DNA of 56,378 nucleotides from Spirochaetota bacterium (GTDB lineage Bacteria > Spirochaetota > Spirochaetia > Treponematales > UBA12059), in the NCBI GenBank assembly GCA_029560805.1, contig JAKQKE010000139.1, forward strand, positions 1 through 56,378. The letters run 5' to 3'. The notes under the pieces were generated by a model, which was not told the origin of the DNA, did not search any database, and saw only the letters and a list, made by a program, of their open reading frames with translations. Both the position numbers and the translations under genes were made by a program. Shown here piece after piece: positions 17,782 through 25,431 of this stretch (its first letter is position 1; every line of letters starts with the position of its first letter).

Positions 17782-18675
17782 CTATCTCGCGCCCAGCGTG
17801 ACGAAGGCCGCCAGGTCCTCCGCGTCGAGGGGGATGCCGTCGGCACGGACTACGCGGCCGGAGGCGTTCCACCGGGCGGCGTCGAGCACGGTCGCCGAAC
17901 GCTCGGGCCAGAGGGCGGTGGCGGCGACGTACAGGAACAGCCTGCAGATCGGCGCGAAGATCACGGCCGAGCGTTCGTCGTCGAACTCGAACGCGAGCGA
18001 CGCGACGTAGGCGCCGAGCGCGGCGGCCTGGCCGGAGGAGGCGCGGGCCGAGAGCATCATGGCGCTCATCGGCACGGCGCCGTCGCCGAGCGGCAGCCTG
18101 GCGCGCAGGGCGTCCATCGGGCGCGGCAGATAGACGGCTATGGGAGCGGCCCACTCGTCGGCCCAGCGCGCGGGCACCGGCTGGGGGTTCGGCTCCGCGG
18201 CCGCGGCCAGCACCGCGTCGAGCGGCGCGGTGCCGACGAAGGCGCGCCCCGACGAGGCGAAGGCCAGGTGGAGCCTGCCGTCGCGGGTCGACCAGGCCTG
18301 GCCGTCCTTGCGCCACGACGGGTCGGACGACAGCCGCATCGAAGCGGCCCCTGCGGGGTAGCGGCCCTCCGCCACGGCGACGACGACGGCCGAACCGTCC
18401 TTCGCGCCGACGAGGGCGAGGGTCATCGAGTCGGTGCGGTCGGCAATGGCCGACGCGCCATTGGCGTCCACACCGGGCATCGAGGCGAGCACGGCCGACA
18501 AGGCGACCCGGTCGAGCCTGGCGTAGGCCGCGGCGCCGACCGGCAGGAGGCGCTCGGCCTCGACGTCGGCGGGGGCTCGCACGACGCTCGCGCAGGAGCC
18601 GGCGGCCAGGGTCGCGAAGGCGGCGATGAGGGTGGAGGCCGCGCGTGATAGCCTCCGCTTCGTTCTCGGCATCAT
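17782..18675 (-). CDS. Predicted lipoprotein of unknown function
   Basis: 297 residues with signal peptide and lipobox AAGSC (Cys near residue 28). The mature part has alternating beta/alpha segments (VGAAAYARLDRVALSAVLASMPG, ALVGAKDGSAVVVAVAEGRYP, RAFVGTAPLDAVLA). This resembles the layout of proteins that score a per-gene threshold, but I recognise no family. It begins in the ATGA overlap with the upstream DUF6765-like gene, so both are made from one minus-strand transcript. Confidence 0.75.
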   Translation of the reverse strand: MMPRTKRRLSRAASTLIAAFATLAAGSCASVVRAPADVEAERLLPVGAAAYARLDRVALSAVLASMPGVDANGASAIADRTDSMTLALVGAKDGSAVVVAVAEGRYPAGAASMRLSSDPSWRKDGQAWSTRDGRLHLAFASSGRAFVGTAPLDAVLAAAAEPNPQPVPARWADEWAAPIAVYLPRPMDALRARLPLGDGAVPMSAMMLSARASSGQAAALGAYVASLAFEFDDERSAVIFAPICRLFLYVAATALWPERSATVLDAARWNASGRVVRADGIPLDAEDLAAFVTLGAR

Positions 18676-19652
18676 AGTCCTTTCTTGCGCAGGAGCGCGG
18701 TCGCGCGCTTCCGGTGCTCGAGCGCCGCCTCGTGCCAGCGGTACAGGTCGCTCCGGTAGAACGACGAATCCGTCCGTACGGCCGCGGCCTGCCCGGTTCC
18801 AGTAGCCCTCGACAGCTGGGCCTTGGCCCAGGCCAGCTTGTCGTAGTGCCTGACGCCGGCGAACGGCGAGGCGTCGGGTGGCGAGCCCGCCTCGCGGCGC
18901 CATAGCCCGTGCTCGTAGGGCCGTATGTTCCAGCATATCACGTAATCCGCCAAACGCTCGTCCTTGGACGGCTTAGCCCAGATCGCCCCGAGCCTGGCGA
19001 CGACGAGCTCGTCGTCGGAGAAGGGCTTGCCGAGGAACACCCGGAGGTAGCGGTAGAGCTTGATCGCCGCGGCGGCGAATCGCTCCCTGTTGACGACCCG
19101 CTCCGAGCCGGCCTTGAGCCTGCGGTCATGCCATACGACATCGGGCTCGTCGGGCGACGACAGGGCCTGGAGATGGCCGGCGGGCGGTAGGCTGGAGGCC
19201 GCGAGCGAGGCGACGATGTCGTTGGTCGGGTCCTGGAGGCCACAGAAATTCTGGTGGGCCCAGCTGTCGGCGAAGGCGTGCGCCGCGATGCCCATCAGGT
19301 AGGGGTCCTTATCCTTGAAGGCGGCGACGAGCAGTTCCTTGACATTATCCGAGTTGGGTGTCACGGTATAGGCCGACGATAAGCCGTCCGCCCGGGCAAA
19401 GGCGGCCTTGGCCTGATCCCCCGGCACGAAGTGGAAGGGCAGGTAGACGTCGCGCTTGACCGCCTCGTCCCAGAACAGGTAGTTCTGGGTTACCGCCAGG
19501 TCGACGCGGCCGCGCGGCGCGTCGAAAGCCAACGGGGTCGTCGACGCGTCGACTTCCTGCGACGAGGCGGCCAGGATGAAGGCGGTCCGCTCGTCGAAGC
19601 CGGCTTCCAGGGCGAGCGCGTAGACCGCGTAGTAATGGAATTCTATATTCAT
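18672..19652 (-). CDS. DUF6765-like protein, possible zinc-phospholipase-C-like fold
   Basis: 326 residues from the ATG giving MNIEFHYYAVYALALEAGF; a TTG nine bases upstream is a possible alternative. The opening NIEFHYYAVY...ILAASSQEVD and GIAAHAFADSWAHQNFCG match my memory of the uncharacterised DUF6765 family. The His/Asp-rich pattern (HxxADxWAHxNF) resembles the metal-binding helices of zinc-dependent phospholipase C/S1-P1 nuclease folds; that link is inference. No signal peptide. Followed by a lipoprotein gene in ATGA overlap and divergent from gpsA. Confidence 0.75.
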   Translation of the reverse strand: MNIEFHYYAVYALALEAGFDERTAFILAASSQEVDASTTPLAFDAPRGRVDLAVTQNYLFWDEAVKRDVYLPFHFVPGDQAKAAFARADGLSSAYTVTPNSDNVKELLVAAFKDKDPYLMGIAAHAFADSWAHQNFCGLQDPTNDIVASLAASSLPPAGHLQALSSPDEPDVVWHDRRLKAGSERVVNRERFAAAAIKLYRYLRVFLGKPFSDDELVVARLGAIWAKPSKDERLADYVICWNIRPYEHGLWRREAGSPPDASPFAGVRHYDKLAWAKAQLSRATGTGQAAAVRTDSSFYRSDLYRWHEAALEHRKRATALLRKKGL

Positions 19653-19721
19653 CGATCGCAAAGATACTCATACGCCCGGCCCGCGGCTATGCACGGTCCG
19701 GGACTATACCGAGGAGGCGAT

Positions 19722-22091: not shown

Positions 22092-22628
22092 TCAGCCGGG
22101 ACTCGTGTCGAGGTGACCAGGGCGAAGTAGCGTGGCCTTGGCCGTGGCCACGTCGAGGTCGTAGATATTGTAGTTCTTGCGAGGGTCGAAGCCTTCGAGC
22201 CTCGCGGCGAAGTTGATCGACGCCGAACCGGCATCGCCCGTGGTCGACCTGTGGAACACGCCGGCGTGCCACATCAGCACGGCCGGGCCGTCGAAGACGG
22301 TCTCGCCGTCATGGACGACGCGCTCCGGCTCCACCACGAACGACTCGATGCGGCGATGCCTGGCCGCGTACAGCTCGACGCTACGCGAGCCGTGGAGGAC
22401 GAGCAGCGTGTCTTCCTGGCAGGCGTGCATGTACCAGGGGCGCTCGACCTCGCCCACGGAGCCCGGGGACAGCGCGAAGCGTCGGTGCACGACGCGCTCG
22501 ATACCGTCGATGTGGCTCAGGTACTCCATCGGCATGATGTCGAGCGCCACGTCCGAACCGCGCTTGAGCGGCTTGAGCTCGATGATGCTATAGAAGCCCC
22601 GTACCTCGTCTATCACGTGCTTCGCCAT
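22092..22628 (-). CDS. Cupin-like protein
   Basis: 178 residues. The centre has a beta-rich, His-containing pattern (HACQEDTLLVLHGSRSVEL...GPAVLMWHAGVFHR) like a double-stranded beta-helix, with paired His and a PWYMH element. No signal peptide. A single gene between the zinc-ribbon gene (10 bp gap, convergent) and the Clp-like gene. Substrate and family are not recognised; it could be a sugar or small-molecule binding or isomerising cupin. Confidence 0.72.
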   Translation of the reverse strand: MAKHVIDEVRGFYSIIELKPLKRGSDVALDIMPMEYLSHIDGIERVVHRRFALSPGSVGEVERPWYMHACQEDTLLVLHGSRSVELYAARHRRIESFVVEPERVVHDGETVFDGPAVLMWHAGVFHRSTTGDAGSASINFAARLEGFDPRKNYNIYDLDVATAKATLLRPGHLDTSPG

Positions 22629-22660: not shown

Positions 22661-24865
22661 TCAAGGAACGCCGGTCGGGGCGATGCTGACGGTAGCCCCG
22701 GCGGCGTCGACGCGTAGTTCGCCTCGCCCGGCCAGGCCGGAGACCATCGAGGCGAGCGGCACCCCGACGAGGCGCCTGAACGCGCGCTGCAGGTCGCGCG
22801 CGCCCAGCTCGACCGAGTAGCCTTCGGCGAGCAGGAGCTCCAGGGCGGCGTCCGTGAACGATAGCTCGACGCCGTACTCGCGTCGCAGGTTCTCGTTGGC
22901 GTCGCGGACCACGACGCCGGTCAGAATGGCGCGAGCGTCGTCCCTGTCGAGGGCACGGAACGGCACGATGGCGTCGAAGCGGTTGAGCAGCTCGATCGGG
23001 AAGGCCCTACGCAGGGCCGCCATCGGCACCGTGCCCGAAGCCGCGAGCGCGGCCGCCTCCGTGCCGGCCAGGAAGCCGAGCGCGGGGCCGGCGTCTCCCC
23101 CGACGTTGCAGGTGGCCACGATGGTCAGGCCCGAGAACGACAGCGTTCTGCCGGTAGAATCGGTCGCGCGGCCCGCGTCGAGTATCTGCAGGAAGACGCG
23201 GTGCACTTGCTGATGGGCCTTCTCGAACTCGTCGAGGAGGAGCACCCCCCCGGAGCACGCGTCGACCGCCTTGGACAGGAGCGGGGCGTCGTCGTAGCCG
23301 ATGTAGCCGGGAGGCGCGCCGAGGAGGCGCGAGGCGGTATGGCCGTCTGAGAACTCGCTCATGTCGATGCGGAACAGCGCGTCGTCGCGGCCGGATAGGG
23401 CCTTGGCCAGTCGCTCGGCGAAGGCCGTCTTGCCGACGCCCGTCGGGCCGGTCAGCAGGAAGGCGCCGCTCGGCCTGTCCCTGCGCGGGTCGAGCCGCAT
23501 CCTGGCCACCCTGACGGCGTCGGAGACGGACTTGATCGCCGCTTCCTGCCTGAGCACGTCGCGGCCGATGGCGGCCTCGAGGCCGGCCAGCCCGCTCGCC
23601 TCGTCGAGGCCCGGCTCGACCACCACGTTGGCTATGTCCTTGACCGCCTCGAGGAGGTGTCGCTCCGCGAGCTCTTCGTCGCCGCGGAACGCGGCCCTGG
23701 CGGAGGCCCGGTCGAGTACGTCGAGCGCCTTGTCGGGGAAGCGGCGCATCGGCAGGTAGCGCCTGGCCACCTCGACCGAGCGAGCGCGGACAGGCTCCGG
23801 TATCGATACGCCGAAATGGCGCTCGAGCCTCGGGGCGACGCCAGCGACGATACGGCCTATCGTCGTCTCGTCGGGCTCCTTGACCAGCACGGTCTGGAAG
23901 CGCCTGAGCAGGGCGGTGTCCTTTTCAAGGTAGCGCGCGTAGTCGGCGCTCGTCGTCGCCCCGATACAGCGTATGCGCCCGGAGGACAGGGCCGGCTTGA
24001 GGGTCTCCGAGATCGGGTTGTTGGCGAAGGCGGGCACGACCTGGTGGATCTCGTCTATGAACAGGTAGACGTCCTGGAGGCTCTCGGCCGCCTCGACGAG
24101 CTGGTTGACGTTCTCCTCCAGGGCGCCGTGCATCGCGGTGCCGGCGAGGAGCTCGGAGACGCGCACCTCGAAGACGCGGGCGTTCCTGAGGCGGGCCGGC
24201 ACGTCGCCCGACTTGATCCGCATCGCGAGGCCCTGGACGAGGGCGGTCTTGCCGACGCCCGACTCGCCGACGATCAGCGGGTTGGGCTTCCAGTATCGCA
24301 TGAGCACCGAGCTGAGCGCGTCGAGCTCGGCCTCGCGGCCGAAGACCGGGAAGTCGGCGTCCGGCCCGGTCAGTTCGTCGCCGAAGCGCAGGAGCGCGGC
24401 GATCGCCTCGGCGGATTCAGCCCGCGGTCCTATCTCGGGCAACGCTATCTCGTCGGCCGGGATGGCCAGGGCGGGCGCCGCCTCCAGCCTGAAGAACGGC
24501 GCCAGTTCGCCCTTGATCGTCGGCCAGGCGGCCCGTATGAGGTGGGACGGCTCGACCTTCGCGTCGCCCGCGAGTGCCTCGGCCCGCTCGAGTATCGACC
24601 TGAACTCGCCGGAGATCTTGATCGGCCCCTCGACCTCGCGCGGGGCGCTCGACTCGAGGCGCTCGTTGAGCGACTTGATCAGCTCCACGTCGACGACCGC
24701 GTTGTTGCTCTTGGCGATCGCGATGATGTCCGGCAGGTCGAACAGCATCAGGGCCTCGGCCAGGTCGCGGTGGCCGGTCTCCCCGATGGGGCCGCGCAGG
24801 GCTATGTCCTGGGTCTTGACGAGGACGTCCAGGGCGCTGTCCGAATATTTATCGTACCTGGACAT
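22661..24865 (-). CDS. Clp/Hsp100-type AAA+ unfoldase with atypical N-terminal domain
   Basis: 734 residues, two AAA+ rings. D1: Walker A GESGVGKT (200-207), Walker B VYLFIDE (near 270). D2: GPTGVGKT (473-480), VLLLDE (near 545), sensor ATCN, C-terminal arginine GARDLQRAFRR. No ClpB-type coiled-coil insert lies between them. The first about 175 residues lack the usual Clp_N repeats. The D1 pore loop reads AMHG instead of KYRG, so the substrate-gripping Tyr is missing; the D2 loop GYIGYDD keeps its Tyr. A LGF tripeptide (596-598) sits where ClpA/ClpC carry the ClpP-docking IGL/VGF. Start has GAGGAG; it lies 2 bp after its partner gene. Confidence 0.9.
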   Translation of the reverse strand: MSRYDKYSDSALDVLVKTQDIALRGPIGETGHRDLAEALMLFDLPDIIAIAKSNNAVVDVELIKSLNERLESSAPREVEGPIKISGEFRSILERAEALAGDAKVEPSHLIRAAWPTIKGELAPFFRLEAAPALAIPADEIALPEIGPRAESAEAIAALLRFGDELTGPDADFPVFGREAELDALSSVLMRYWKPNPLIVGESGVGKTALVQGLAMRIKSGDVPARLRNARVFEVRVSELLAGTAMHGALEENVNQLVEAAESLQDVYLFIDEIHQVVPAFANNPISETLKPALSSGRIRCIGATTSADYARYLEKDTALLRRFQTVLVKEPDETTIGRIVAGVAPRLERHFGVSIPEPVRARSVEVARRYLPMRRFPDKALDVLDRASARAAFRGDEELAERHLLEAVKDIANVVVEPGLDEASGLAGLEAAIGRDVLRQEAAIKSVSDAVRVARMRLDPRRDRPSGAFLLTGPTGVGKTAFAERLAKALSGRDDALFRIDMSEFSDGHTASRLLGAPPGYIGYDDAPLLSKAVDACSGGVLLLDEFEKAHQQVHRVFLQILDAGRATDSTGRTLSFSGLTIVATCNVGGDAGPALGFLAGTEAAALAASGTVPMAALRRAFPIELLNRFDAIVPFRALDRDDARAILTGVVVRDANENLRREYGVELSFTDAALELLLAEGYSVELGARDLQRAFRRLVGVPLASMVSGLAGRGELRVDAAGATVSIAPTGVP

Positions 24866-24867
24866 GC

Positions 24868-25431
24868 CTACTCCTCGAGCCTGACCGGGGATCCGGCTAG
24901 GCTCAACTTGGCCCGGTCGACGCCGGCGGCCCTCAGGATCCGCTCGGCCCTGCGCACGTTGTCGGCCGTTTCCTCCGCGTCGTCGAGCGACGCCGGGCCG
25001 CCGGCCATGGCAGCGGCGACGGCCGGGTGGTACTCGTCGATGATCTGCACGAGACCGTTCAGGCAACGCATGAACTGCCTGGGGCCGAGCTCGGCGTCCT
25101 CGATCGGGAATTCGACGATGGCCCGTATCTCGCCGTCCCGCTCGTCGTACTCGTACTTGATCAGCTTGGAACGCCAGCAGATACCGAGCAGGGTCCGGTA
25201 CACCCAGCCGGCGTTCGGCCCGTCGGGCGGATAGCGGTAGAGGTTCGGCGCCATCAGCTTGAAGTACTCGCCGTCCTCCTCGACGCGGACGATGATGAAC
25301 ACGCTCGAGTCGCCGTCCTGGTCGCGGTAGAGGTCGGTCGCGAAGCTCGTACGGATATAGTCGTCGTGCACCGAGTATTTGAGCCGCTCGGCGATCAGGT
25401 ACGATTCTATGGTCGACAGCTTCGTTGGCAC
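24868..25431 (-). CDS. YbjN / type III secretion chaperone-like protein
   Basis: 187 residues with a GTG start eight bases after GAGGAG. The N-terminal about 135 residues alternate beta strands and helices in the YbjN/secretion-chaperone layout (SSVFIIVRVEEDGEYFKL, YRTLLGICWRSKLIKYEYDE, IRAIVEFPIEDAEL). The C-terminal about 45 residues are a charged tail. No type III or VI secretion genes are nearby. Encoded 2 bp before the Clp-like ATPase, so it is probably its adaptor or substrate selector (inference). Confidence 0.75.
   Translation of the reverse strand: MPTKLSTIESYLIAERLKYSVHDDYIRTSFATDLYRDQDGDSSVFIIVRVEEDGEYFKLMAPNLYRYPPDGPNAGWVYRTLLGICWRSKLIKYEYDERDGEIRAIVEFPIEDAELGPRQFMRCLNGLVQIIDEYHPAVAAAMAGGPASLDDAEETADNVRRAERILRAAGVDRAKLSLAGSPVRLEE

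Follow-up and report, generated by a model that had tools for sequence, protein, structure and literature searches.

A YbjN-fold protein paired with a diverged ClpA-like unfoldase in a spirochaete family: a candidate adaptor for ClpP-dependent proteolysis

Known Hsp100 systems and YbjN-fold proteins

The closest described system is ClpA-ClpS-ClpP, in which the two-ring unfoldase ClpA lacks an M-domain and has a Clp_N-type N-domain and an xG[LF] loop; in Escherichia coli, the gene of the small partner lies directly upstream of that of the unfoldase (clpS-clpA). In the SspB-ClpXP system, a client-binding core is connected by a linker to a C-terminal docking peptide, as set out in the available sections of PMC7226468. 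Lineage-specific additions to the Hsp100 repertoire are also on record: ClpI of Actinomycetota is an extra class that has a variable N-domain and a ClpC-length M-domain, one subtype also having an LGF loop, and the accessible part of that report (PMC10149685) does not describe a dedicated YbjN partner.

Proteins with the YbjN fold, including DR_1245, AmyR and E. coli YbjN, have solved structures and pleiotropic phenotypes, and no biochemical role has been agreed on. Homologs of DR_1245 adjoin peptidase genes, and a role in degradation has been suggested from these neighbours (PMC3575483, available portions). The same T3SS/YbjN chaperone superfamily contains the TY-chaperones (TY-Chap1-3) of ADP-ribose-linked conflict systems (PMC9503650, available portions). 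A literature search whose scope left out most subscription papers returned no paper naming both YbjN and ClpA and no link between YbjN and an AAA+ unfoldase; as far as their accessible text goes, papers naming YbjN with ClpP, or YbjN with Spirochaet, concern other matters, and a broader search gave, among the matches listed, Clp papers without YbjN in the text available. A dedicated YbjN-Clp pairing such as the one described here offers a direct test of a biochemical role for YbjN.

The locus and a proposed mechanism

The window, that is, the whole 56,378-nucleotide stretch of contig JAKQKE010000139.1 that was analysed, comes from a Spirochaetota bacterium and encodes a two-ring unfoldase preceded by a small partner protein. 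The features are:

24868..25431, minus strand: partner gene (P0002), 187 aa, YbjN/T3SS-chaperone fold, GTG start
24871..24885, minus strand: C-terminal motif of the partner, V-R-L-E-E-COOH, with GAGGAG codons that double as a Shine-Dalgarno-like sequence of the unfoldase gene
22661..24865, minus strand: unfoldase gene (P0001), 734 aa, two-ring Hsp100/Clp, ATG start
24458..24865, minus strand: unfoldase N-domain, residues 1-136, predicted diverged Clp_N double repeat
24245..24268, minus strand: D1 Walker A, GESGVGKT, residues 200-207
24125..24136, minus strand: D1 pore-1 loop, AMHG, residues 244-247, aromatic lost
24050..24061, minus strand: D1 Walker B, FIDE, residues 269-272
23426..23449, minus strand: D2 Walker A, GPTGVGKT, residues 473-480
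23297..23308, minus strand: D2 pore-1 loop, GYIG, residues 520-523, intact
23072..23080, minus strand: LGF of the predicted ClpP-docking loop, residues 596-598

As in the original prediction, both ORFs are present and separated by 2 bases, the partner ORF ending at 24868 and the unfoldase ATG lying at 24865. A longer unfoldase ORF from a TTG at 25066 is a mechanical extension, and the start is taken as the ATG. The scan of the flanking genes bore out the expected lack of nearby secretion genes, in that it turned up neither a secretion apparatus gene nor an effector gene, which would mark a T3SS chaperone proper. It also revealed no clpP and, in contrast to the TY-chaperones, no ADP-ribose or conflict-system genes were recognised beside the pair.

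We put the chances at about even that the two proteins form a dedicated adaptor-unfoldase system feeding the host ClpP, in which the partner holds clients and docks by its tail. This reading draws on sequence and on analogy, namely on the pairing of the genes in 18 of 23 family genomes and the absence of both from the other 5, the C-terminal motif of the partner (19/19), the xGF loop of the unfoldase (17/17), the ClpP genes of the host and the partner fold. A dedicated pair had been proposed at the outset, either feeding ClpP or acting as a remodeller; the pairing and the xGF loop make the first the best reading, and the second is rated lower. The ClpA-like protein would form a two-ring hexamer, dock on host ClpP via its xGF loops and unfold clients mainly through the intact D2 pore loop. 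The YbjN-fold part of the partner (residues 1-142) would bind clients in the way that T3SS-type chaperones hold unfolded segments. Through a physical interaction of its conserved C-terminal peptide, most likely with the diverged N-domain, the partner would be tethered near the unfoldase and would hand clients over for degradation.

Such an arrangement would be analogous to that of SspB, with a client-binding core, a linker and a C-terminal peptide for which we infer a docking role. However, the unfoldase is a different one, the motif here is [VIL]x[LF]E[ED], and the fold of SspB is unrelated to the YbjN fold of the partner. With its gene directly upstream of that of the unfoldase, the partner is also reminiscent of ClpS in clpS-clpA. 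If the proposal is correct, the pair would add a further small-partner solution to those of ClpS, MecA and SspB. More tentatively, and with the balance somewhat against it, we hypothesize a new class of adaptors, in which a YbjN/T3SS-type chaperone docks by a [VIL]x[LF]E[ED]-COOH tail on the N-domain of its own Hsp100 protein and delivers clients to ClpP; other members of this poorly understood superfamily would then also be delivery factors for proteolysis.

The YbjN-fold partner

The description of the partner as YbjN-like agrees with its predicted fold. An AlphaFold2 model based on seven sequences (mean pLDDT 76) matches DR_1245 (Z 14.7), E. coli YbjN (Z 12.8) and AmyR (Z 12.3), as well as many class I T3SS chaperones. 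Compared with the YbjN fold, it has a short strand and a C-terminal helix in addition, and the protein also has the C-terminal tail motif; residues 175-187 are modelled with a pLDDT < 50. Pfam YbjN (PF10722) is matched by 12 of the 20 family partners at E values up to 1, the best being 2.9e-6, and not by P0002 itself, while TY-Chap1 gives weak matches in 2 of the 20, with a best E of 0.07. Across these 20 sequences, 15 columns of the core are invariant. The partner is not ClpS, the only match to the ClpS domain (PF02617) in the genome lying elsewhere, on contig C271.

When 392 Spirochaetota genomes were searched with a partner profile, with up to 8 candidates scored per genome, all 9 true matches fell within the family. 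One weak match outside it, in G065, is put down to chance, as the ORF concerned resembles a phosphoserine aminotransferase in its sequence. Viral contigs and phage records yielded no relatives, PADLOC no match, PHROGs a single chance-level match and the partner profile, run against PDB sequences, a chance-level match only. The nearest outside relative is the C-terminal domain of a 774-aa protein encoded on plasmid pSYLA of Synechocystis PCC 6714 (L190:4669-6993), which is 32% identical and has no recognised AAA+ domain. The gene for this Synechocystis protein lies next to, or one gene away from, a DUF262 gene.

A partner of this kind could instead be a regulator, an assembly factor or a client. 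That it regulates or assembles the unfoldase, as an inhibitor, an activator or a factor holding an inactive state, rather than delivering substrates, is rather unlikely in our estimate, although dedicated pairing and a conserved tail would suit any stable partner; it is chiefly as a binder of client segments that the YbjN/T3SS-chaperone fold is known. A precedent for activation is provided by ClpC, which requires adaptors such as MecA for this step, according to the sections available of PMC12521514.

The unfoldase, a diverged relative of ClpA

The best NCBIfam match of the unfoldase is ClpA (TIGR02639), yet at 437.7 bits it stays far below the curated cut-off of 993.15. The 17 family rows cluster together on a long branch that lies outside the ClpA clade, both in FastTree (clade support 1.000) and in IQ-TREE. 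In the latter tree, from which L094, L104 and L110 were dropped for poor alignment and FAM_G021 by coverage, and whose support labels shift upon re-rooting, the nearest relatives are two Patescibacteria proteins, which are so distant that this position in the tree is unsure. The host encodes a canonical ClpA beside its ClpS and two further Clp_N proteins, of which one groups with ClpB-type rows and has no GF loop and the other is ClpC-type with an LGF loop. The window unfoldase is hence a fourth, additional Hsp100 of this host, and it differs from ClpA-ClpS also in that its partner has the YbjN and not the ClpS fold.

Two AAA+ modules had been predicted to be intact, and the Walker A and B motifs and the sensor and arginine-finger regions of D1 and D2 are indeed preserved in the arrangement typical of Hsp100/Clp proteins. 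A structural model matches ClpC, ClpB and ClpA across residues 155-734, and some ClpC and ClpA chains align from residues 2 and 6. In line with the original prediction, the ClpB-type coiled coil is absent. The unfoldase thus has neither the long coiled-coil M-domain nor the missing xGF loop that characterise ClpB, and it combines the two ClpA-type features, an absent M-domain and an xG[LF] docking loop.

The N-domain had been described as non-standard and devoid of Clp_N repeats, and this part of the prediction did not hold. Residues 1-127 can be aligned, in collinear order, with the pair of Clp_N repeats found in other Clp proteins and, judged from this alignment, are a diverged Clp_N double repeat and not a replacement domain. 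Pfam Clp_N gives no match in the window unfoldase; absence of the domain is nevertheless rejected on the basis of profile-profile alignment with hhalign, in which the family N-domain matched the Clp_N repeats with a score of 51.4 and a probability of 94.7, compared with a maximum of 15.8 in 60 column shuffles and 9.7 for the reversed alignment. The query contained 13 of the 17 family N-domains (four with long linkers were dropped) plus that of G012b; from the 22 reference N-domains, L129 and four short ones of the zinc-finger type were removed, which left 17 as the target; an earlier, less clean run had given a probability of 82.1. Against the two canonical spirochaete ClpA rows alone there was no match (probability 1.4), so that the result depends on the deeper reference set. 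In the 392 Spirochaetota genomes, an N-domain profile retrieved the family strongly; weak matches fell in the N-terminal parts of Clp-like frames, which mostly measure 860-920 aa.

The D1 pore loops are unusual. The loss of the D1 pore-loop tyrosine, noted originally, is confirmed for the window protein, whose pore-1 loop reads AMHG, with Met at the Tyr position, compared with KYRG in E. coli ClpA and KFRG in the host ClpA. The loss is not family-wide, as Met, Leu or Val occupies the position in 14 of 18 rows and Phe in 4. An aromatic pore residue is described as invariant in AAA+ unfoldases in the accessible part of PMC9663308. For two-ring Hsp100/Clp unfoldases it is usual and not strictly defining; in our alignment three ClpE-like rows (L068, L069, L073) also lack it in D1, and its absence alone does not therefore exclude membership. 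All 18 family rows have a D1 pore-2 region that falls 4 residues short of that in two host-type ClpA rows of the alignment, and each of the 17 rows covering the D2 GYxG loop has it intact. With both D1 pore loops altered, substrate handling may differ from that of ClpA, and a lineage-specific Hsp100 branch of this kind, if confirmed, would be useful for probing the role of the D1 ring.

Long inserted stretches of low complexity separate the two N-domain repeats, and also D1 from D2, in the unfoldases of G014, G019 and G021 (L155, L158, L159), which retain Phe in the D1 pore loop.

The LGF tripeptide had been assigned to the position of ClpP-docking loops, and it occupies the same alignment column as IGL of E. 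coli ClpA and IGF of the host ClpA. In the structural model it falls inside a low-confidence loop (residues 591-613), which is probably mobile. It is unlikely that the unfoldase is a ClpP-independent remodeller with this loop as a relic: such a protein would fit with the unusual D1 pore loops and with the lack of clpP among the flanking genes scanned, but [ILVM]GF is found in all 17 family rows covering the loop, down to about 41% identity, and is missing from the ClpB-type proteins aligned. Moreover, clpP is present in the host, where the ClpP family is matched three times, once within a longer frame.

Gene pairing and the C-terminal motif

The pairing appears obligate from the sequences at hand. 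Separation of the two genes in relatives would have spoken against a dedicated pair, and they are adjacent in 18 of the 18 genomes that have them, all related members of one family and hence not independent cases; in G008, the Clp gene is cut off by the end of the contig just past the partner stop. Both genes are missing from G013, G015, G017 (an assembly of just 57% completeness), G020 and G022. An overlap of 4 bases between start and stop codons occurs in 5 pairs, and one of a single base in 2. Most pairs share a neighbourhood with NTP-transferase and FecBCD-type ABC transporter genes; in G009 and G018 the pair is kept in a different neighbourhood, and G012 has a second pair in reversed order, with the partner downstream of the unfoldase. 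Among 80 loci retrieved with the unfoldase, 74 encode other Hsp100 proteins, none with a partner-like ORF of at least 60 aa in the stretch examined.

Conservation of the partner tail is a new observation of the present analysis. [VIL]-x-[LF]-E-[ED]-COOH ends all 19 Clp-linked partners, following about a dozen poorly conserved linker residues. The one unlinked copy, a paralogue in G012 (contig C36, L154:4995-5648) with no Clp neighbour, is without the motif, a correlation with linkage that relies on n=1. The Glu codons, GAGGAG or GAGGAA, fall at the expected ribosome-binding site of the Clp gene in most pairs, and this Shine-Dalgarno-like sequence could alone keep Glu-Glu. Selection on the peptide is argued for by the positions -3 and -5, which are always hydrophobic, by the use of GAAGAA, GAAGAC and GAAGAA, and not the usual Shine-Dalgarno run, in G010, G012a and G012b, by the persistence of the motif in the G012b partner, which has no Clp gene downstream, and by the motif-less C36 paralogue.

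These data also bear on whether co-transcription is all that joins the genes, with the Glu-Glu tail being nothing more than a ribosome-binding site for the gene that follows. The synteny that most family genomes show with the flanking genes for the ABC transporter and the NTP-transferase, and the overlap of GAGGAG with the Shine-Dalgarno position, would suit this. Yet the pair persists where the neighbourhood differs and where a duplicate has its gene order reversed, neither the hydrophobic residues at -3 and -5 nor the GAAGAA and GAAGAC versions are explained by ribosome binding, and a flanking cupin-like gene, by contrast, remains in 4 of the 5 pair-less genomes, which together make mere co-transcription improbable. 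It is very improbable that the unfoldase has the partner as its main client and not as its helper: a C-terminal tail predicted to be disordered (pLDDT < 50 at 175-187) might act as a degron, but the good conservation of the core, and its fold of a client-binding chaperone, speak against this.

The cupin-like gene (22092-22628, minus strand) encodes a 178-aa protein without a Pfam match, which we take to resemble a cupin. It was considered as a third member of the system and rejected, since 20 of the 23 genomes have it, including 4 that lack the pair, and since it lies on a separate contig in G009. Further away in the window, at 17782-19661 on the minus strand, a gene for a DUF6765 protein adjoins one for an unassigned 384-aa protein, and in several family genomes both have relatives close to the pair.
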